NCBI GenBank assembly: GCA_029212405.1
Contig: JARGNR010000008.1
Span: forward strand, 1 to 64,000
Source: Saprospiraceae bacterium
GTDB taxonomy: Bacteria; Bacteroidota; Bacteroidia; Chitinophagales; Saprospiraceae
DNA: 64,000 bases
Reading direction: 5' to 3'
The notes beneath the pieces were generated by a model. That model worked only from the letters and a program-made list of their open reading frames with translations, had not been told where the DNA came from and made no database searches. Below are positions 17,843 through 27,975 of the stretch, in pieces. Both the position numbers and the translations under genes were made by a program. How positions within the stretch are numbered: position 1 is the first letter of the stretch; the number at the start of each line of letters is the position of its first letter.

Positions 17843-18583
17843 TTATAATTCTACTGACGTTCCATCTTCAAAAAGAATGGTCCATATGCCTTCCAAAAGC
17901 TCTACCGTACCAGCATAGTCCTTTTTACTATATGGGATTGGATCTCCCTCGTTGGTTTCAATTTGCAACTCAAAACGTATGATTGAAGATTCCGTAAGAA
18001 TAATGTTTTGATCATCGTATTGACAACTGGGGAGAACCATATATAATCTAGCAGTTGGATCTAATTCTGCGGACATTCCTTTGGTAATAAGAATATCTCT
18101 AAGTGCTATATTGCTATAGGTATATACGTCATCTTCAAAATTTCCTGCAATGGTTTGTTTATCGGATAATCTCATTTCTAAATCAAATACATCAGATGCA
18201 GCTACTTGTGTTCCTAATCCAACATTTCCAAAATACCGTCGATCATTGTACACTCCCCACCCAGCACCACAACTAATCAAGACCTCACTTGTATAAGATA
18301 ACATATATTCAATAGCTGATTCATCTTCCAATACTACTTCCATGGTAGTATCACAAGGTAGGCCCTCTACTCGAACACGGTTATGGTACAACTCGAAAAG
18401 CTTGAATACACCACCATATTCTTTAAGTATGTTAAGCCTTAGAATTTCTGCAGCCTCCATATTTGTGATTTCATGAATTGATTTGAATTCTAGATTTATT
18501 TGTTGCTCTTGTTCTTCTTTGGTACAGGAAGAAATGAACAGTAGAAGTAAAAAAAGTGGTACAATGTAATTTTTCATTTTCAA
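17843..18583 (-). CDS. lipoprotein of unknown function, third gene of the sigma-factor operon
   Basis: 246 residues with a lipoprotein signal (LFISSC, Cys about residue 20) and no recognised domain. The body is mixed alpha/beta with YHNRVRVEGLPCDTTMEVVL, a Cys-Gly-Ala-Gly-Trp-Gly patch and a beta-rich C-terminus ending in WTILFEDGTSVEL. Three further Cys residues lie after the lipobox. It starts 11 bases after the stop of the barrel/anti-sigma-like gene, so it is almost surely co-expressed with it. I infer an envelope role in the same circuit (sensor accessory or target), without direct evidence. Confidence 0.7.
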   Translation of the reverse strand: MKMKNYIVPLFLLLLFISSCTKEEQEQQINLEFKSIHEITNMEAAEILRLNILKEYGGVFKLFELYHNRVRVEGLPCDTTMEVVLEDESAIEYMLSYTSEVLISCGAGWGVYNDRRYFGNVGLGTQVAASDVFDLEMRLSDKQTIAGNFEDDVYTYSNIALRDILITKGMSAELDPTARLYMVLPSCQYDDQNIILTESSIIRFELQIETNEGDPIPYSKKDYAGTVELLEGIWTILFEDGTSVEL

Positions 18584-18594
18584 TTGATTTTTTC

Positions 18595-19944
18595 TTAATT
18601 AATGGTGTATCGAATGCCTAATAAAACTTGATAATCTTGAAATGTTCCCAGTGTGTTTTCTCTAGCTAATGATTTGGATTGAAGCTGATCCGTAAACTGT
18701 GTTCTATACACTACTCCCGTAAACATTTGTAGATTATTTAGAAGATAATAGTTGACTTTAATTTGGGCTTGGTATGTAGGAGTTGTATTCATAGCAAATA
18801 CAGTTTTTGTGTAATCTCGATACTGAATAGATCCATCTACCCAGGTCGGTTTTTGTTCAAATTCAATTTTGTCAATTTTTGATAAACCAAAACTAAAACC
18901 ACATTCAACATCTACTTTCTTGTGCACAAATAAATTCATTCCATATCCAAGGGATAGATTATTGTCTTTATAAATTCTTTTTATTCGTTCGCCTACAAAC
19001 TCCTCTTCACCATCCAACCTGTTATACGAAAGATTGAAAAAAGTATTAAAATACCGAGTGCGTAGATGTTGGTAATTAATAGCTGTATGAGACACTCTAA
19101 TCTTATTATTTGAGTCAAGTAATTTAAAATCACTAGTCAAACCATAGTCCTTACCGACACTAAAGCCAATGTCAAATGACCACCTTACCATAGAATTGGC
19201 AACAAACGGTTCAACTAATTTATTATGCATATTCAGTACAATTGAAGAAGAAAGGTGTGTTGTAAGGTTGTTTATTACTGGAAACCTCAAGATTTTTCTA
19301 CTCATTGTACCCTTCGGTAAATTACCAATTTCAATATCTTCTGTCTGTGAAGTTTGAGTCTCAGAATCCTTATCTTCAAATAGTGAGGATGAAGAGTTTT
19401 TCTTACTAAAATTTTGATCTGCAGTTAAACCAGACTCTGAATTTTTAAATCCTTTTGTATACTCTGATTGCAATTTTTTATTCCTCGCTTTTGTCATTTT
19501 ACTGTTTCCATATCCAATAGAATTATCCATGGAGATACTTCCGTTGGTAACCTTTAAGGTGATCGCAGATTCAACATTTTGTTTGTTCTCGACTTTAGCT
19601 ATCTCTCTAGTTTTGCTTCCTTCTATTTTTACTCCAGCCTCTTTTTTTGTGGATTGGTAAGCATAATTTTCTTGTTTTTTATTGTCTAATGAAATATCTT
19701 TTGATTCTTCAATTTGCGAGGTTTGATTTGTCTTTGAAATTGTTTTTGTAACAAAATAAGTAGATATAGCAATTACTAAAAGTGTTAGAAACGTTATCAA
19801 ATATGTATACTTTGAAAAACCGCTATACTTTCTTTTTTCTTCAAATTGTGCCCATCCTACAGATGGATCAAGCTGTATATCATTTGCTTGAAATTTATCT
19901 GCATAAAACTGGTCCAAAGATTTATTCTGGTAGTCTTCCTTCAT
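18595..19944 (-). CDS. putative dual-membrane anti-sigma factor: cytoplasmic tail, TM helix, outer-membrane barrel-like domain
   Basis: 449 residues. Residues 1-44 are a polar N-terminus with DQFYADKFQANDIQLDPSVG, then a single TM helix about 45-66 (YTYLITFLTLLVIAISTYFV). A polar Ser/Lys/Glu-rich linker spans about 70-215. From about 225 there are alternating amphipathic beta strands (WSFDIGFSVG, NLSLGYGMNLFVHKK, YQVLLGIRYTIN) that look like an outer-membrane barrel. Its start codon overlaps the sigma-factor stop by one base. A family of anti-sigma factors spanning both membranes was described in Bacteroides thetaiotaomicron (Dma proteins), and the layout matches. Direct anti-sigma activity here is inferred. 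Confidence 0.72.
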   Translation of the reverse strand: MKEDYQNKSLDQFYADKFQANDIQLDPSVGWAQFEEKRKYSGFSKYTYLITFLTLLVIAISTYFVTKTISKTNQTSQIEESKDISLDNKKQENYAYQSTKKEAGVKIEGSKTREIAKVENKQNVESAITLKVTNGSISMDNSIGYGNSKMTKARNKKLQSEYTKGFKNSESGLTADQNFSKKNSSSSLFEDKDSETQTSQTEDIEIGNLPKGTMSRKILRFPVINNLTTHLSSSIVLNMHNKLVEPFVANSMVRWSFDIGFSVGKDYGLTSDFKLLDSNNKIRVSHTAINYQHLRTRYFNTFFNLSYNRLDGEEEFVGERIKRIYKDNNLSLGYGMNLFVHKKVDVECGFSFGLSKIDKIEFEQKPTWVDGSIQYRDYTKTVFAMNTTPTYQAQIKVNYYLLNNLQMFTGVVYRTQFTDQLQSKSLARENTLGTFQDYQVLLGIRYTIN

Positions 19945-20471
19945 TACATATATGGTTTAAGTAGTTCTTGAAGATTTTTCCTTGCTTGATTCAAATACCA
20001 TTTCGATGTTCCTTCAGAAATATTGAGCTCTTTTGCAATCTCTTTATGTTTATATCCATCAATTGCGAACATCGAAAAAACAATTCTCTCATGATCACTT
20101 AATGAATGTATTTGTTTCATGATTTCTTGTAGACTTAAGGATTCTAATGCATCATTAATTACAATGGTATGAATCTCATCCATGTCCGTATGTCGTTGAT
20201 CATATTTCACCCTTTTTCGCACATAATCCAAGGTTGTATTTCTAACCATTGTACTCGACCACGGAATTAAACTTTCAGCGTTTTTAAGCTTTTCTATTGA
20301 GTTAAATATTTTCATAAAGCTATCATTTACTATCGTGAGGGCATCAGATTGGGTTCTTACATACCTCAATGAAATTTGCATAAAACGACTATAATGATTT
20401 TGGTAAAACTCTTTTTGCGCTTGTTTTTCCTTTCTAACAAGACGATTCACTATTGAGCTGGTTTCACTCAT
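19944..20471 (-). CDS. ECF-type RNA polymerase sigma factor
   Basis: 175 residues from ATG 20471; a GTG at 20522 would add 17 residues and is less likely. Region 2 spans about 10-90 (YSRFMQISLRYVRTQSDALTIVNDSFMKIF), with core-binding and -10-recognition character. Region 4 covers about 110-170, with LSDHERIVFSMFAIDGYKHKEIAKELNISEGTSKWYL as its helix-turn-helix. The NISEGTSKWYLNQARKNLQ ending is typical of Bacteroidota ECF factors. The stop overlaps the next ATG (TAATG), suggesting translational coupling with its probable anti-sigma partner. No clear target promoter motif was identified. Confidence 0.9.
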   Translation of the reverse strand: MSETSSIVNRLVRKEKQAQKEFYQNHYSRFMQISLRYVRTQSDALTIVNDSFMKIFNSIEKLKNAESLIPWSSTMVRNTTLDYVRKRVKYDQRHTDMDEIHTIVINDALESLSLQEIMKQIHSLSDHERIVFSMFAIDGYKHKEIAKELNISEGTSKWYLNQARKNLQELLKPYM

Positions 20472-20688
20472 TATTTCGTGATTGTGGTATTTTGCGTTTT
20501 GAAATGTAATCGAAATCGACACAATAATAATTCTTGTTTACCTTTAAGTCGAAGTCAAATACTAAATGGTTGGTAAAAACCCAACATTTTTTAAAATTTC
20601 ATCATTCATTTCGCAGATTAAACATGATTGTAGCTCTAAAAAGAATAAATATCCATTATTGCATTACCAGTACATTGCTCTGTAGATT

Positions 20689-22998
20689 TTATCGCCAGGT
20701 GTATTTGACTGATACGGATGCAAAATAATTACGAGGTAATCCTGGATAATAATATCGTGGTGGATTTCCACCAAAGCTTCCTGCATTGATCAAAATCATG
20801 GAAGCATATTTTTCATTGAAGATGTTGCGCATTCCAAATGATACATCAACTTCAAATGAATCAAATAACTCCTTCTCAAAACCTAATTTAATATTTGAAA
20901 CATGATATGATTCAGAATATATACTGTTGTCATCACGCATTGGAAATGCATCTATAAATCGATAATTAATACTGCTGTAGAAGCCTGAAGAAGAAGAAAT
21001 ATCTATACCCATATCCAATTGATGAGGAGGAGTTCCAGTGAGTTCATTGCCAGAATAATCATTGTCCTCATCTACAAAGTCTTCGAATTGATAGTTGGAA
21101 TAGGTATATGATAAAAAAGGTGTAGCAACAAAGTGAGAGTTGATCTCTGTTTTATATTCCAAATATAATTCTAGTCCATTATGGTTGGTCCTTCCTGCAT
21201 TCAATCCCACAAACTGATCCTCACTTACTCTTTTCGACACCAACAAATCATTTATTTGCATGGTATAGGCTGTCAACTCATAGATAAATTTCGAATTGAT
21301 CTTACCTCGACTTCCAATCTCAAAATTCCATCCTTTTTCAGGTTGGATTTCTGGGTTGATTTGTCCATCTGGTGTTAAGGTTTCTGATAATGAAGGCGGA
21401 GAAAATCCATGGCTAATGGTAGTAAATAATGAAATCGTATAGTTGAATTGATAACTCAGCCCTATATGAGGAGACAAAATACTCCCAAAGTTATAATCCC
21501 CTGAACTATCGTTTCCATCTAACAAAAACAAATCTTTATAAGAATATCGAGTCGCATTAAAATTCAAACCGCTCAGTAACGTAATATTTTCTCCGAAGGA
21601 TAAATAGCTCTGAAGAAAGATATTCATATTCTTCCGCACTTCATCATTATCACTCAACAATTCTTCTTTTGCCCCATCGTCAGTTTCAAATGTTTTCCAT
21701 TCATACTTTTCTCTAAAGGATTCGATTCCTATTGTAACCAATGGAAGTCTGTTTTTTTGTCCTCCATTGTGATGAAGTTCAAAAGTCGATCGTATACCTA
21801 GACTGGCACTTTCTTCCTCCAAGATATTGAATGGTCTAGATTCATATGAGTTTCTGGTATTCCCAAACAGACTTGATTTATTGATCAAGGAAATTTGTCC
21901 TATATCGGCCAATTTGTGTTTATGAGAAAGGCCAAAGAGAGATTTGTTGTATTCTTCAAACCCCTTAATTCTCCCCCAAGTAAACGCTGCTTTTTCAGGG
22001 TTTTGTAAATAATCGTCTCGACTTAAAGAACTCGGAATAAATGCTTTTAGATCAATGTAGTTTCCAAAAAAGGTTGTCTCATGAGTAGAGTTGGGTGCAT
22101 ATTTCAAGAAGATATTTGCTCCATCCCTATCATATGCATTATTCACTCTATATCCATCACTATGCGTTGTATTTAATGTCGCTCCAATTTGTAATTCTTT
22201 GCCTTCACTTAAATAATTTCCTCTTAATACATTTCTAATGAGGCCATACGAACCGATTGTAGTTTTATTTTCTATTTCTGTTCCTATCGTTGACCCAACA
22301 CCACTTCTTAAATGGATCATACCTCCCAATCCAGCTCCATATATACTTGCAGTAGGTCCTTTCCAAACATCCACCTTTCTAATCAAACTCAAATCAATGT
22401 CTTCAATGGTGGTTTCTCCATCTCCAGATGTCAAGGGGATATCATCGAGATAGGCTCTTATTTTTGTTGTTGAAAATAAAGATCTATTGCCCACCCCTCT
22501 TATTGTAATTCTATTGGTATTCAATGCCCCAGAATGCATATATAGACCTGTCACTCGATTTAAGGCAGGGGTAATCGAAATATCTACATCTCGTTTTAAA
22601 TGTTCGGGATATATCTGCATTAAGGGTGCTGGCAATTTCAGCTGAATTGCCCTGCCAGATATAGTAACTGCTGAATTATCTTCTAATAACATTGAATTAT
22701 CAGCATTTAACTGAATATTATAAACTCCACTCTTTGAAATTTCAATTGATTCCGTTGTATATCCCAAATAAGAAAATGAAATCATGCCTGAACTAGGCAG
22801 TTCAATTTCATAAAACCCTTCTTCATCCGTGACTGCTTCAATTGAATAACCCTCAAAAGTTATTGAAACTAGCGGCAATGGTTCTCCACTATCCTTATCA
22901 CTTACTATTCCACTAATTTGAACTTGCCCATTCAATGTACAGACAAGTAAAAGGAATTGAAGTGTCAAGAACAAATGGTTACAACCATCTAATTTCAT
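20689..22998 (-). CDS. TonB-dependent receptor with carboxypeptidase-like N-terminal domain
   Basis: 769 residues: signal peptide (about 1-24), carboxypeptidase-like domain about 26-105 (ISGIVSDKDSGEPLPLVSI, ending in FSYLGYTTESI), plug about 125-235 (NRITIRGVGNRSLF, then DVWKGPTASIYGAGLGG) and a barrel ending in FASVSVKYTWR. The plug and barrel resemble siderophore/metal-type receptors of the FecA/CirA kind more than SusC, and no SusD gene is present. It begins 14 bases after the CocE-like gene, which itself follows an S10 peptidase. The three probably form an operon for import and breakdown of one class of compound. Confidence 0.9.
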   Translation of the reverse strand: MKLDGCNHLFLTLQFLLLVCTLNGQVQISGIVSDKDSGEPLPLVSITFEGYSIEAVTDEEGFYEIELPSSGMISFSYLGYTTESIEISKSGVYNIQLNADNSMLLEDNSAVTISGRAIQLKLPAPLMQIYPEHLKRDVDISITPALNRVTGLYMHSGALNTNRITIRGVGNRSLFSTTKIRAYLDDIPLTSGDGETTIEDIDLSLIRKVDVWKGPTASIYGAGLGGMIHLRSGVGSTIGTEIENKTTIGSYGLIRNVLRGNYLSEGKELQIGATLNTTHSDGYRVNNAYDRDGANIFLKYAPNSTHETTFFGNYIDLKAFIPSSLSRDDYLQNPEKAAFTWGRIKGFEEYNKSLFGLSHKHKLADIGQISLINKSSLFGNTRNSYESRPFNILEEESASLGIRSTFELHHNGGQKNRLPLVTIGIESFREKYEWKTFETDDGAKEELLSDNDEVRKNMNIFLQSYLSFGENITLLSGLNFNATRYSYKDLFLLDGNDSSGDYNFGSILSPHIGLSYQFNYTISLFTTISHGFSPPSLSETLTPDGQINPEIQPEKGWNFEIGSRGKINSKFIYELTAYTMQINDLLVSKRVSEDQFVGLNAGRTNHNGLELYLEYKTEINSHFVATPFLSYTYSNYQFEDFVDEDNDYSGNELTGTPPHQLDMGIDISSSSGFYSSINYRFIDAFPMRDDNSIYSESYHVSNIKLGFEKELFDSFEVDVSFGMRNIFNEKYASMILINAGSFGGNPPRYYYPGLPRNYFASVSVKYTWR

Positions 22999-23012
22999 AT
23001 AAAATCTAAATT

Positions 23013-24911
23013 TTATGGACGTATTTCTCTTTTATTAGTGACTGCTGCACCTCCTGCTTTGACCGTTGATGCTCCGTACACGATAATGTCTGATTTTATA
23101 AAATCTTCTTCTTCAGCTTTATAAATATTGTCCACATATTTTTGTGGGTTTCGATCGATATACGGAAACCAAGTACTGTGGACTTGAATCATAATCCGAT
23201 GTCCTTTTTTGAACGTATGTAAAATATCTTGAAGGGGTACACTCACCTCTGTCTTTTGTCCTGGTACAAATGGCTTTGGGTTGGAGTAGCTGTCTCTATA
23301 TCTTCCTCGAAAAACTTCATGTCGTACCAACTGTTCATAATTTCCCATTTTTATATTCTTTGGGTTGTGTTCGTACTCAGGATGATCAGGCGGATATTTA
23401 TCAATGAGTTTCACGACAAAATCAGCATCTGTTCCTGTCATTGATACGACTAAATTAGCTAGTATTTCTCCCGCAATCGTAACATCCTCTTCTAAAACAT
23501 CAGTACAAAACGTGACAACATCTGGTCGACGACCAGCTTCTCTTTGATCATCTGTTATAAATTGTCTTGGAGTGAATGTGAGGCCTTCAGTAACAGATCG
23601 ATAGGGCACAGGTTTAGCTGGATCACTGGTATATTCAAATTCCAATTGTGGATCTGTTGGTGCATTTACATAAAGCTTGCCCTTTTCCCCAAAATACAAT
23701 TCGGTAGGTGTTATATTTTCTGGTGGCCATGCTTCAAATTTTTTCCATTCTTTTTTTCCTGTATCAAACATTATTGCCTCAGGAAGCGGGTTTGCTTCTT
23801 GATCCTTTAAATGGTGGGCAAAAAACGGAGCTTCTATTTCATTTTGATAGTAACTGGATATGCTATCTCCAAAATAGATGTGATTTACCGTCTGTTGGCC
23901 TCTTTCTCTTGCCCATCCTCCATGAGTCCACGGCCCCATAACAATTGTATTTTTCGCTTTAGGATTATGTTTTTCTACTGTTTTATAAATATTCAAAGGT
24001 CCACATAAATCTTCTGCATCGTACCAACCTCCTACGGTCATCACTGCATGATCAATGTCTCCACCAGTCAATGCGGGAAGTAAACTTCTTTTTTGCCAAA
24101 ATTCATCATAATTTGGATGTTCAACAATTTGATTCCAGAAAAAATTATCATGATGAAATTCTTCTGTAATATTTTTTAGGGGCCCTTTTTCTAAATAAAA
24201 ATCGTATCCATCGGCAATTTTTTGTGAATAAAATCGCATCATTTTATCCATATACCAAGGAGACCGAGTAAGCGTATCTTTTTGATATCCAAACACTGCA
24301 AAAGCAGGGGTATAGCTTTGTAAAAAAGCTCCATGATGGTGAAAATCGTCAAAATAGAAATCTGAAATTGGTGCTTGTGGAGAAGATGCTTTCAGAGCAG
24401 GATGTGCGTCTGGCAGTGCTGCGGCTGTATAAAATCCAGGATATGAAACACCATACATTCCCACTTTTCCATTATTATTCTTTATGTTTTTTACCATCCA
24501 ATCAATAGAATCATACGTATCCGAACTTTCATCAATTGCCTTTTTATTATTGAGATCATTCCCATTCACATTTGGACGCATATTGTCAAATTTGCCTTCC
24601 GACATGTACCTTCCTCTCACATCTTGAAATGCAAAAATGTACCCTTCTTTTATCAAAGCTGTAGAAGGTTGACTACCAAATTGAAAATTATCACTTCTGG
24701 AAGCATTATAACATGTTCTTTTTAATAAAATTGGATAATCTCCCTCCGCTTTGGGTGAATAAACCAGTGTGTAGAGTTTTATACCATCTCTCATTTCGAT
24801 AAAATATTCGGCTTTATCAAAATTTTCTTTTAAGTAGGTACTATCTATGGTTTGGCCTTGCACATTACTTAGCACATAGAAAGATATAAGGAGTGAATAA
24901 ACTAATTTCAT
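23013..24911 (-). CDS. CocE/NonD family serine hydrolase, exported
   Basis: 632 residues from ATG 24911, which begins a clear signal peptide (MKLVYSLLISFYVLSNVQG). The alpha/beta-hydrolase core has the nucleophile motif GVSYPG (in KVGMYGVSYPGFYTA) and the cap domain with FYFDDFHHHGAFLQ. The acid/histidine region includes MTVGGWYDAEDLCG and GPWTHGGWAR, followed by the C-terminal jelly-roll DIIVYG end. Family members are cocaine esterase, Xaa-Pro dipeptidyl peptidase and glutaryl-7-ACA acylase, so acyl-ester or peptide cleavage outside the cytoplasm is likely. It lies 37 bases after an S10 peptidase gene and 14 before a TonB receptor. Confidence 0.9.
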   Translation of the reverse strand: MKLVYSLLISFYVLSNVQGQTIDSTYLKENFDKAEYFIEMRDGIKLYTLVYSPKAEGDYPILLKRTCYNASRSDNFQFGSQPSTALIKEGYIFAFQDVRGRYMSEGKFDNMRPNVNGNDLNNKKAIDESSDTYDSIDWMVKNIKNNNGKVGMYGVSYPGFYTAAALPDAHPALKASSPQAPISDFYFDDFHHHGAFLQSYTPAFAVFGYQKDTLTRSPWYMDKMMRFYSQKIADGYDFYLEKGPLKNITEEFHHDNFFWNQIVEHPNYDEFWQKRSLLPALTGGDIDHAVMTVGGWYDAEDLCGPLNIYKTVEKHNPKAKNTIVMGPWTHGGWARERGQQTVNHIYFGDSISSYYQNEIEAPFFAHHLKDQEANPLPEAIMFDTGKKEWKKFEAWPPENITPTELYFGEKGKLYVNAPTDPQLEFEYTSDPAKPVPYRSVTEGLTFTPRQFITDDQREAGRRPDVVTFCTDVLEEDVTIAGEILANLVVSMTGTDADFVVKLIDKYPPDHPEYEHNPKNIKMGNYEQLVRHEVFRGRYRDSYSNPKPFVPGQKTEVSVPLQDILHTFKKGHRIMIQVHSTWFPYIDRNPQKYVDNIYKAEEEDFIKSDIIVYGASTVKAGGAAVTNKREIRP

Positions 24912-24948
24912 ATTAATTGCTTCAGTTTTAATTTTATAATTCAAGACT

Positions 24949-26448
24949 CTAGTACTTTGCTGGAACATTTTCTCCAGGAAGGCTTTTAAGTATAAAGTCT
25001 CTCAAGTGATTGTTTGCCTTCTTTAAATCTTCACGTCTCAGATACATCATGTGTCCCGATCTGTATCCTTCAAATCTCAACCTGTCCTTCATTTTTCCAC
25101 TTGGATCCAATTGCCACATAGAATATTTTGCATCAAAATAAGAAGTTGCTCCGTCATAATATCCAGATTGAATCATGACATTCAGGTAAGGATTTTGAGC
25201 CATCGCTTGTCTAAGGTTTTCTCCCGTTTTGTCACCTGATCTATCCCATGGACGGACAGGTCCAAACATATTGTACTTTACATCAGTTTCAAAATTGAGT
25301 TCATTTCTGAAGTAATAATTGATAGCAGGAGTAAAAGAATGCAACCAAGAGGTCAATTCAGAATTAAAATCTGGTCGAACTCCAGATTCCGTTTTATCTA
25401 GTCCTTTATATCTCGAATCTAATCGACCCACTGTGAGTCCATCTCTTTCTCTCAACAAATCTTTCCAAAAAAATGAAGTTGAAACATCTAAGTTGTTTTG
25501 AAGAATACTCTTTTCTGACAACCCCGAATACATAGACATTTTCTTCGCAAGGGATTTCATTTCATCTTCTGGTAAAAAACCTCCTCTGGCCATCGCGGGT
25601 AGTAACTCATCCATCGCAAAAGCTTCTGCTTTAGGCAACAACTCATCTAAATCCAATGCCTGTAATTCCGGAGAAAGAGCATTATGAAACCATGCAGCGG
25701 CTGCAAAATAAGGCAATCGATTGGCTGATTTTACAATTCCATCCCTTTTGATTCCCAAATCTGTTGGAGAGACGAGCACGACTCCATTGAGATACATCCA
25801 TTGTCTATTTTGAAGCTCCAATGCTAACCCTGAGACTCTGGTTGTTCCGTAACTCTCTCCTATCAAAAATTTAGGTGATCTCCATCGGTTCGAACGAGTC
25901 ACAAAAGTATTGATCCAATCAGCAAGGTATTTTACATCCTGGTTCACTCCAAAAAACATTTTTTTTGCGTCTACTTCCTTATCCACAACTCTTGAGTAAC
26001 CCGTATTTACAGGGTTTACAAATACAATATCTGCTACATCCAATACAGAAAATGGATTTGTCTTTACCCCATACGGCTGAATAGGATATCCTTCGTCATC
26101 GATGGTCAATGTCATTGGTCCTGTGTAGGCAATATGCATCCATACTGAAGCCGAACCAGGACCTCCATTAAATGAGATTAATAGTGGACGATTACTTTGG
26201 TCAGCAACATCTGTTCGAGAATAGTAGGTATAAAATAATGTTGCTGCCACTTTACCATTTTCATCCCATACTGGCTGTGTCCCTACTGTTGCTTTATATG
26301 GTATTTTCTTATCATTAATTGTGGTCGTGTGATTGGTGACCACTTCTGTTTCTACTGGAATACTTCGATCATAGTTTTTATCCTCATTCTGGGCGAAGGA
26401 TAAAAAAGAAAGCATACAAAAAATCAATATTGAATAAAGTATTTTCAT
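24949..26448 (-). CDS. S10 family serine carboxypeptidase-like peptidase, exported
   Basis: 499 residues starting at ATG 26448 with a signal peptide (MKILYSILIFCMLSFLSFAQ). The S10 signatures are FNGGPGSASVWMH (oxyanion region), the nucleophile in FLIGESYGTTRVSG, the Asp region SGYYDGATSYFD, and the terminal His in GYRSGHMMYLR. S10 enzymes remove C-terminal residues from peptides, usually at acidic pH in eukaryotes; bacterial members are secreted or periplasmic. It is the first gene of a minus-strand unit with a CocE-type hydrolase and a TonB receptor, and is divergent from the ABC exporter operon. Confidence 0.92.
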   Translation of the reverse strand: MKILYSILIFCMLSFLSFAQNEDKNYDRSIPVETEVVTNHTTTINDKKIPYKATVGTQPVWDENGKVAATLFYTYYSRTDVADQSNRPLLISFNGGPGSASVWMHIAYTGPMTLTIDDEGYPIQPYGVKTNPFSVLDVADIVFVNPVNTGYSRVVDKEVDAKKMFFGVNQDVKYLADWINTFVTRSNRWRSPKFLIGESYGTTRVSGLALELQNRQWMYLNGVVLVSPTDLGIKRDGIVKSANRLPYFAAAAWFHNALSPELQALDLDELLPKAEAFAMDELLPAMARGGFLPEDEMKSLAKKMSMYSGLSEKSILQNNLDVSTSFFWKDLLRERDGLTVGRLDSRYKGLDKTESGVRPDFNSELTSWLHSFTPAINYYFRNELNFETDVKYNMFGPVRPWDRSGDKTGENLRQAMAQNPYLNVMIQSGYYDGATSYFDAKYSMWQLDPSGKMKDRLRFEGYRSGHMMYLRREDLKKANNHLRDFILKSLPGENVPAKY

Positions 26449-26676
26449 TTTGGAGAGTTTTAATATCAGGCAGTGAAAGTACAATAAAGTTCACTAATAT
26501 CAAGGGCTCCAGTTAACGACCCAATGATAAACTGATTTAGATATCAAAATAGAACTGATCCCTATGCTAAAAACATCCTCCACTATATTTTCCATTTTCG
26601 GTCAAGGGTGTTCGAAAACGCACAATATAATGTTTTTTCATATGTATAATCTGTTGATTTTATGGTTATTAATTTG

Positions 26677-26692
26677 TGGCATATCCATTGGT
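26677..26692 (+). promoter_or_regulatory. sigma-54-like promoter of the exporter operon
   Basis: TGGCAT-ATCCA-TTGGT matches the sigma-54 -24/-12 pattern TGGCAC-N5-TTGCW with correct spacing. Two bases deviate: T for C in the -24 box and G for C in the -12 GC pair. It predicts a start near 26703, 22 bases before the ATG at 26725. The operon contains its own sigma-54 activator, which supports the call. The imperfect -12 element and an alternative TTTATTTG -7-like match at 26692-26699 weaken it. Confidence 0.45.
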
Positions 26693-26695
26693 TTA

Positions 26696-26723
26696 TTTGT
26701 GTCAATATAGAAATAGACACAAA
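26696..26723. repeat. perfect 8-bp inverted repeat at the start of the exporter operon
   Basis: TTTGTGTC at 26696-26703 and GACACAAA at 26716-26723 are exact complements around a 12-base AT-rich spacer, ending one base before the adaptor's ATG. It covers the predicted transcription start and the ribosome-binding area. It could be an operator, or a hairpin that masks the start codon if transcription begins further upstream. Confidence 0.6.
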
Positions 26724-26724
26724 G

Positions 26725-27975
26725 ATGGACAGAAAACTAACTTCAAAAGAACAGTCAAAAGGAAAGTATAAAAAATGGACCTATCCTATATTAGCCGTGA
26801 TGGTTTTGATCATTGGAATTTATGGCTTTAGAGCATTATTAGCAAGTAAAGCCAATTCGTCAGATTTCTTTATTGCCTCCATTGAAAAAGGAGAGGTCAC
26901 CCATACTGTATCTGCAGCTGGAATTGTCATCCCTGCTTTCGAAAGAGAAATTAATGCTCCGGTTGCGACTGAAATTAAAAGTGTAACATTATCGACTGGA
27001 GCGACTGTTACAAAAGGTGATTTGATCCTTGAATTGGACCAGGAATATACTCGATTAGAATACGAGCAACTGAAGGATGAGCTTGATCTTAGAAAGAATA
27101 ATATTGAAAAGCTAAAACTACAGTTTGACAAAGATCTGAGAGATCTGGACTATCAAGATAAGATAAAAGCACTGCAAGTAGATGAATTAAAAGCTGAAGT
27201 AAATGATCAAAAAAGACTATTGAATATTGGGGGAGGGACAGCTGAAGAGTTGGAGCAAGCTGAGCTAAAATTAAAAGTAGCAGGATTGGAGAAAAAGATG
27301 CTGGAAAACGAATTGCAGTATAAAAGAAGTGTCAATGTAAATGAAAAGAAAGGATTGGAATTGGAATATACGATCCAAGAAAAAAGACTAAAAGAATTAC
27401 AGCGAAAACTACAAGAGACAAGCGTACGTTCACCTCAGTCTGGTGTGATCACATGGATCAATGAAGATATCGGACGAACGGTGACAGCAGGAGAAACATT
27501 AGTTAGAATTGCAGATTTGGGAAGATATGTGATTGAAGCGACAAGCTCTGATAGAAACAGTGATAAGCTGAGTATTGGTCTTCCAGTAAATGTAAGAATT
27601 GGCAACAAAAACTTAGATGGTTCCATCTCTAGAATATTACCTGCCGTACAAAATAACACGGTAAAATTCTTTGTAGAATTGGACAAAAATGAATCCGAAT
27701 TCCTTCGACCCAATATGCGTGCCGAAGTATTTATCATTACAGATAAAAAAGAAAATGTTTTAAGAATTAAGAATGGTGCAGCTTTCAGGGGAGCAAATAC
27801 ACAAGAGGTCTTCTTTGTAGAAGGAAATAAAGCAGTCAAACGAAAGCTTAAGAAGGGCATATCCAATTCAGATTATGTAGAAATCCTATCCAACGCCAAT
27901 CTTGGTGATAAAATAATCATCTCTGAAACGAATGATTATAAACACCTTGATGCATTCATTCTTTTGGACAAATAA
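26725..27975 (+). CDS. MacA-like periplasmic adaptor (HlyD family) of a tripartite ABC exporter
   Basis: 416 residues. ATG 26725 is preferred over an ATG at 26662 because it gives a compact basic N-terminus before the TM anchor (about 16-37, YPILAVMVLIIGIYGFRALL). Next come the first biotinyl-lipoyl half (about 70-95), a long alpha-helical coiled-coil hairpin (about 95-230), the second lipoyl half (RSPQSGVITWINEDIGRTV) and beta-barrel domains. Such adaptors bridge an inner-membrane ABC transporter to TolC. The gene heads a plus-strand run of TolC, ATPase and two permeases, which confirms the role. Confidence 0.9.
   Translation: MDRKLTSKEQSKGKYKKWTYPILAVMVLIIGIYGFRALLASKANSSDFFIASIEKGEVTHTVSAAGIVIPAFEREINAPVATEIKSVTLSTGATVTKGDLILELDQEYTRLEYEQLKDELDLRKNNIEKLKLQFDKDLRDLDYQDKIKALQVDELKAEVNDQKRLLNIGGGTAEELEQAELKLKVAGLEKKMLENELQYKRSVNVNEKKGLELEYTIQEKRLKELQRKLQETSVRSPQSGVITWINEDIGRTVTAGETLVRIADLGRYVIEATSSDRNSDKLSIGLPVNVRIGNKNLDGSISRILPAVQNNTVKFFVELDKNESEFLRPNMRAEVFIITDKKENVLRIKNGAAFRGANTQEVFFVEGNKAVKRKLKKGISNSDYVEILSNANLGDKIIISETNDYKHLDAFILLDK

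Follow-up and report, generated by a model that had tools for sequence, protein, structure and literature searches.

A fast-diverging, predicted Dma-type envelope-sensing operon with an orphan lipoprotein in a Saprospiraceae bacterium

We analyzed a 64,000-nucleotide stretch of DNA from a Saprospiraceae bacterium (the window) and found, on its minus strand, adjacent genes for an ECF sigma factor, a 449-residue protein and a lipoprotein. The locus is a fast-diverging copy of a Dma-type (dual-membrane) envelope sensor, a kind of system already known, accompanied by an orphan lipoprotein, and we consider it likely that the three genes form one self-amplifying, envelope-sensing operon of this type. 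Four features set it apart from a routine case: extreme divergence, an orphan lipoprotein of surface type, a promoter motif and a recurrent third slot in the operon. According to the available part of the study describing them, Dma factors are found solely in Bacteroidota, and the very few members studied all come from gut bacteria (PMC13088901); the present locus and the relatives gathered around it extend the layout to environmental lineages beyond these. A literature search, with subscription papers mostly outside its reach, returned no published description of such a system in Saprospiraceae.

Gene order and conservation of the sigma/anti-sigma pair

The features of the locus are as follows:
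19944..20471, minus strand: ECF sigma factor, 175 aa (Pfam, NCBIfam, region-4 signature)
18595..19944, minus strand: Dma-type anti-sigma factor, 449 aa (tail 1-44 with W31, TM helix ~46-69, linker 73-214, predicted beta-barrel 254-446)
17843..18577, minus strand: orphan lipoprotein, 244 aa (lipobox ISS-C, export-signal-like CTKEEQE)
20546..20573, minus strand: predicted ECF-type promoter CCAACC-N16-CGACTT (motif learned from other sigma upstream regions)

The three open reading frames run from 20471 to 19944, 19944 to 18595 and 18577 to 17843, and the stop of the sigma gene overlaps the start of the 449-residue gene in a TAATG at 19944, just as the first-pass annotation of this DNA had placed them. 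That annotation also put the lipoprotein 11 bases downstream, which is right if translation begins with the TTG at 18583; the ATG at 18577, six bases further on, is the likelier start and leaves a gap of 17 bp. A nicotinate gene converges on the operon and ends 59 bp past the lipoprotein gene.

The sigma product (ATG at 20471) matched Pfam Sigma70_r2 and Sigma70_r4_2 as well as NCBIfam sigma70-ECF above cut-offs, and carries ISEGTSKW, a region-4 signature common to its relatives. Such relatives are abundant, with a match at E 1e-25 in 146 of 150 family genomes and 24 matches at E 1e-8 in its own genome; the nearest among 398 family genomes shares 49% identity, and 395 genomes of the class held no match better than E 1e-40. 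Seven sister loci from the same genome were opened (L091-L097, on contigs 114, 213, 191, 123, 13, 107 and 74), with a second gene of 432-510 aa in six and of 115 aa in one. In the pairs L091-L096, an ECF sigma gene with 31-39% identity to that of the window is followed by a gene for a single-TM protein of 432-510 aa, and a lipoprotein gene in tight third position, of another family than the window's, is present at L095 alone.

We then read 150 sigma loci, 70 from the searched genomes including the window's own and 80 from database records (query alignment of 13 sigma factors), of which 138 were distinct by sigma sequence once repeats had been removed. The sigma/anti-sigma gene pair is a conserved and common arrangement: a same-strand gene followed within 400 bp in 134 of the 138 distinct loci, which bears out the pairing proposed from the sequence, and the other four had no such gene by our counting rule, the contig ending in two of them. 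Second genes were complete in 127 of the 134; 109 of these 127 overlap the sigma stop codon or begin no more than 15 bp from it, and 122 encode an early TM segment. Their products measure 350-760 aa in 108 cases, <300 aa in 12 and >1000 aa in 7. A loose pattern, W..[MLFIV], occurred in 120 of the 127, a count that came without a control and was set aside as evidence. By record title, the layout spans Saprospiraceae, Chitinophagaceae, Pedobacter, Cytophagales and other environmental lineages.

Some second genes of ~1600-1880 aa have the same tail and TM helix, followed by a bacterial alpha-2-macroglobulin:
L153, 6474-11870: alpha-2-macroglobulin-type second gene
L207, 6540-11735: alpha-2-macroglobulin-type second gene
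L208, 6610-12249: alpha-2-macroglobulin-type second gene
L034, L039, L042, L044, L138, L140 and L141: further second genes of this type

MG2, A2M and thioester (TED) domains exceeded Pfam cut-offs in both of the two long genes scanned, and a C-x-E-Q thioester motif was present in 7 of the 10 (L034 and L153 being the same contig, and L138 incomplete). Such domains suggest that a protease trap is coupled to a sigma factor, and a full-text search of the available literature returned no published link of bacterial alpha-2-macroglobulin with an anti-sigma factor. By eye, the tryptophan motif is repeated in some tails (L017/L047, L028/L087, L023/L082, L026/L085), with two to four copies ahead of the TM helix, as though such tails bound more than one sigma molecule.

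The 449-residue protein and its predicted barrel

Every part that had been read by eye in the 449-residue protein is present: a tail of ~44 residues, one hydrophobic segment at ~46-69 (best 21-residue mean 1.88) with no second one ahead of the linker, a long polar linker (73-214; by composition only, 75% K/D/E/R/S/T/N/Q/G/P and 20% hydrophobic) and a C-terminus ending in YTIN. Together with a predicted outer-membrane barrel within 254-446, these parts uphold the dual-membrane, i.e., Dma-type, layout proposed earlier.

The protein matched no Pfam or NCBIfam family; no relative was found at E 0.001 in 60 genomes, and none in viral or genome contig scans; 396 genomes of the order gave two weak partial matches (E 0.003), neither with a sigma pair. 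No ortholog of the whole trio was found in the genomes searched, which counts against the Dma-type reading, as does the missing family match. Pairwise comparisons were more informative: scored against shuffled versions, the tail exceeded z 3 in 46 of 117 comparisons with relatives and in 0 of 79 with unrelated proteins encoded by its own genome, and the C-terminus did so with 15 of 117 relatives vs 2 of 79 controls. In an alignment of relatives picked from database-record loci (A2), W31 aligns with W in 27 of 28, and every one of the 29 rows has M, F or L in the column of F34. These tail and C-terminus statistics place the 449-residue protein, as a divergent member, in a large sigma-linked family. 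Its tail probably holds the sigma factor inside the cell, and the protein probably reaches the outer membrane.

Profile searches were less favorable. A profile of 117 other tails placed the tail second of 514 ORFs at a weak E of 0.0026; when fifteen other members were left out in turn, their tails scored 25 to 73 bits vs 13 for the 449-residue protein. The C-terminal profile gave E 0.61 (best single domain 0.0055), and both profile results count against the Dma-type reading. The top tail-profile match in the window (26662-27975), an efflux adaptor that aligns mainly by its TM segment, was rejected.

An outer-membrane barrel is predicted within the C-terminal 245 residues. AlphaFold2, given residues 205-449 and 25 relatives chosen partly by C-terminal similarity (alignment A4), returned a model with mean pLDDT 66.3, pTM 0.59 and eight strands of at least 10 residues, in protein numbering:
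254-263, predicted strand
267-276, predicted strand
282-304, predicted strand
313-339, predicted strand
342-364, predicted strand
388-402, predicted strand
407-420, predicted strand
435-446, predicted strand

VIA-align gave Z ≥8 for 49 of the 997 chains, led by the EspP autotransporter barrel (Z 11.6, 2.8 Å over 176 residues), and by title the best 50 of the 997 are all outer-membrane barrel proteins or the complexes that assemble them. Foldseek gave no match to the model at E 0.001 or better, which counts against the Dma-type reading; the top 50 listed are mostly outer-membrane barrels and also include pore toxins and other non-barrel proteins. The first-pass expectation of a barrel after residue 225 is in this way borne out, with moderate confidence, by eight long strands and barrel-like structural matches. 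Two further alignments, A2 and A3, were not used for folding, since the barrel region of the 449-residue protein fitted them at chance level only. The fold of the model may be borrowed from the relatives because A4 was picked partly for similarity, and we call the barrel predicted, not shown, because the model depends on A4, which was chosen after A2 and A3 had fitted at chance level.

These results also bear on a simpler reading, in which the protein is an ordinary one-membrane anti-sigma factor whose C-terminal half is a periplasmic sensing beta domain, with no outer-membrane barrel. We regard it as improbable. It would fit the moderate model confidence (pLDDT 66), the lack of any sequence family backing a barrel in this protein, and the 12 of 127 complete second genes that encode <300 aa, too short for a tether plus a barrel. 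It sits poorly with eight long strands whose best structural matches are outer-membrane barrels, and with a C-terminus weakly but significantly related to those of sigma-linked proteins, about half of which match Pfam OMP_b-brl_2 (15 of 28 relatives scanned).

Predicted promoter and probable autoregulation

Upstream of the sigma ATG lies CCAACC-N16-CGACTT, its 5' end 103 nt and its 3' end 75 nt away. Word pairs made of CCAACC, 15-17 bases and CGT are enriched before sigma genes (best 6+4 pair in 15 of 136 upstream regions vs at most 6 when shuffled), and a CGT box at -10 is described as typical of ECF promoters in the available part of PMC9723704. A motif was trained on the regions upstream of 79 other sigma genes, without the window locus, and 57 loci were held out; 42 of these 57, some of which may be close kin of training loci, exceeded the 99th percentile of random stretches, vs 2 of 141 other gene upstream regions of the same genome. 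For 1500 random 200-mers drawn from this genome the 99th percentile is 13.2; the window site scores 20.9, which is reached by 0 of the 1500 and by 0 of the 141 gene upstream regions. With an earlier fit on 135 other loci, no other site on either strand of the 64-kb window came within 2 bits. Since an ECF-type promoter motif precedes the operon, the sigma factor probably drives its own operon, i.e., the operon is probably autoregulated from CCAACC-N16-CGACTT, as judged from sequence.

Two observations on this motif count against the Dma-type reading: among the sister sigma loci of the same genome it is above threshold in 3 of 7 and below in 4 of 7, and a search for further target sites found the exact pattern twice in the genome vs 3 times for a reversed control. 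The other exact site lies inside an ORF on the other strand and was not counted as a target. Generic sigma-70 promoter scans performed at chance (26 found, 25.4 expected) and were discarded. The motif provides a testable handle on target genes, turning the question of what such sensors control into a concrete search.

Directly upstream of the sigma gene and on the same strand is a TonB receptor gene (20689-22998, minus), a position that would suit FecR-kind cell-surface signalling driven by this TonB-dependent receptor. Signalling of that kind is defined by two domains, FecR in the anti-sigma factor and STN in the receptor. Here the 449-residue protein has no FecR match at Pfam E up to 0.1; the Pfam hits of the receptor are to barrel, plug and carboxypeptidase-regulatory domains, and an N-terminal STN is absent at E up to 0.1; and a separate promoter is predicted for the sigma gene, so that receptor-driven signalling appears very remote. 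The region 20689-26484 (minus) is itself likely a peptide-use operon, with a serine carboxypeptidase (S10), a CocE/NonD-type S15 hydrolase and the TonB receptor.

The lipoprotein, the third-gene slot and a proposed mechanism

The third gene had been described as an unrecognised lipoprotein, and so it is: it matched nothing in Pfam (E up to 0.1) or NCBIfam, 148 genomes held no relative, and 396 genomes gave three weak matches, none of them convincing. The best-looking of the three has mainly the signal peptide in common and lacks a sigma neighbor. A single-sequence AlphaFold2 model had pLDDT 34, and no fold was assigned. The lipobox ISSC is followed by TKEEQE. In Capnocytophaga canimorsus, the minimal surface-export signal (LES) is K-(D/E)2 near the lipobox cysteine, as given in the available part of PMC5080379; C-T-K-E-E-Q-E fits this signal, which was defined in that species and may differ in Saprospiraceae. 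A stricter pattern, C-x-K-[DE][DE], occurs in 5 of 116 lipoproteins counted. From its sequence, the lipoprotein is probably displayed on the cell surface.

Across the 138 distinct loci, a same-strand third gene of any spacing was present in 61 and a tight one (at least 100 aa, at most 30 bp after the anti-sigma gene) in 28, counts that include related loci (four Pedobacter) and are not independent. With lipoboxes and signal peptides called by simple rules, tight third genes are mostly exported (25 of 28 vs 38 of 121 among other closely following genes, Fisher p 2e-8) and often encode lipoproteins (16 of 28 vs 17 of 121, p 6e-6); without the window locus, lipoproteins make up 15 of 27 (p 1.5e-5), and the export enrichment keeps p 4e-8. 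They fall into 15 sequence clusters, one of which, with 11 members, recurs across lineages; the window lipoprotein is alone in its own. This enrichment, combined with the number of clusters, indicates that the third slot is real and its occupant varies. The first-pass idea of a new component consequently stands for the protein itself, which is new; the slot is not, since an exported third gene recurs in such operons and the published dma2 operon has three genes too (PMC13088901).

The recurrent lipoprotein family appears as the tight third gene at L048, L095, L195, L197, L200, L205, L210, L211, L215, L227 and L231; the L095 member lies in the window's own genome, and the two scanned, L048 and L095, had no Pfam match at E 0.01. 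We rejected this family as a home for the window lipoprotein, the hhalign match being confined to the signal peptide.

The closest published parallel is Dma2/Das2 of Bacteroides thetaiotaomicron, whose dma2 operon comprises BT_1558, BT_1559 and BT_1557 (PMC13088901, available part). Compared by its published description, it shares with the window locus the order sigma, anti-sigma, third gene and the four-part anti-sigma layout, and its self-induction has a counterpart here in the predicted self-promoter (PMC13088901, same part). Unlike its third gene, which is a DUF4943, the one described here has no Pfam family at E 0.1, and specifically no match to DUF4943 (PF16301) at Pfam E up to 0.1; a true DUF4943 gene occurs elsewhere in the genome, without an ECF pair in the 9.5 kb examined around it. 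Other systems are also alike, as far as the available parts of their reports go. In M0N98_03760 of Phocaeicola vulgatus and EcfO/Reo of Bacteroides fragilis, a sigma gene is followed by a long anti-sigma with an inner-membrane helix and an outer-membrane barrel; the regulon in those other organisms includes LPS and NigD-like genes, and a similar pair in P. vulgatus protects against toxins (PMC9308784). In CirY/CirZ of P. vulgatus, an ECF pair is likewise followed by a co-transcribed exported gene, which there, unlike here, is spy, for a Spy-like chaperone (PMC13114119).

We propose a switch whose first part is modelled on the Dma scheme of PMC13088901. In it, the cytoplasmic tail, around W31, would keep the sigma factor at the inner membrane, and the 449-residue protein would cross this membrane once, span the periplasm as a disordered tether and end in a small, predicted outer-membrane barrel. 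A change at the outer membrane, which could be damage, a ligand or loss of barrel assembly, would be passed from barrel to tail by the tether and TM helix as strain or structural change, and would release the sigma factor. Once freed, it would transcribe its own operon from the CCAACC-N16-CGACTT promoter, and induction would raise the lipoprotein, which may go to the outer membrane, probably its outer face, as a local output.

Alternatively, the lipoprotein may be part of the sensor, sitting beside the barrel and binding the signal or gating the switch; we hold this possible, if rather unlikely. Lipoproteins of unrelated families recur as tight third genes, as though each were fitted to a barrel that diverges, and here barrel protein and lipoprotein are both orphans. 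Against this, Delta-dma2 strongly raises das2 and bt_1557, and deleting bt_1557 in the Delta-dma2 background left vesiculation unchanged in the available part of that study (PMC13088901), a combination that favors output over sensor for third genes. Other third genes are also varied, from signal-peptide proteins to the Spy-like chaperone encoded next to cirYZ (PMC13114119, available part). Broader still, and something we offer as speculation that is probably wrong in its full form, Dma operons across Bacteroidota may have a third slot with an exchangeable occupant, an exported and often surface-located lipoprotein acting as signal partner of the barrel. Barrel and lipoprotein would diverge together, too quickly for orthologs to persist within a family, and the trio would then be a lineage-specific pair of this sort under an autoregulated promoter of its own.

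At L045, L098 and L100, lipoproteins of ~293 aa are encoded as third genes 143-189 bp downstream, and the one scanned, from L045, matches the Pfam RskA_C (anti-sigma-K) domain.
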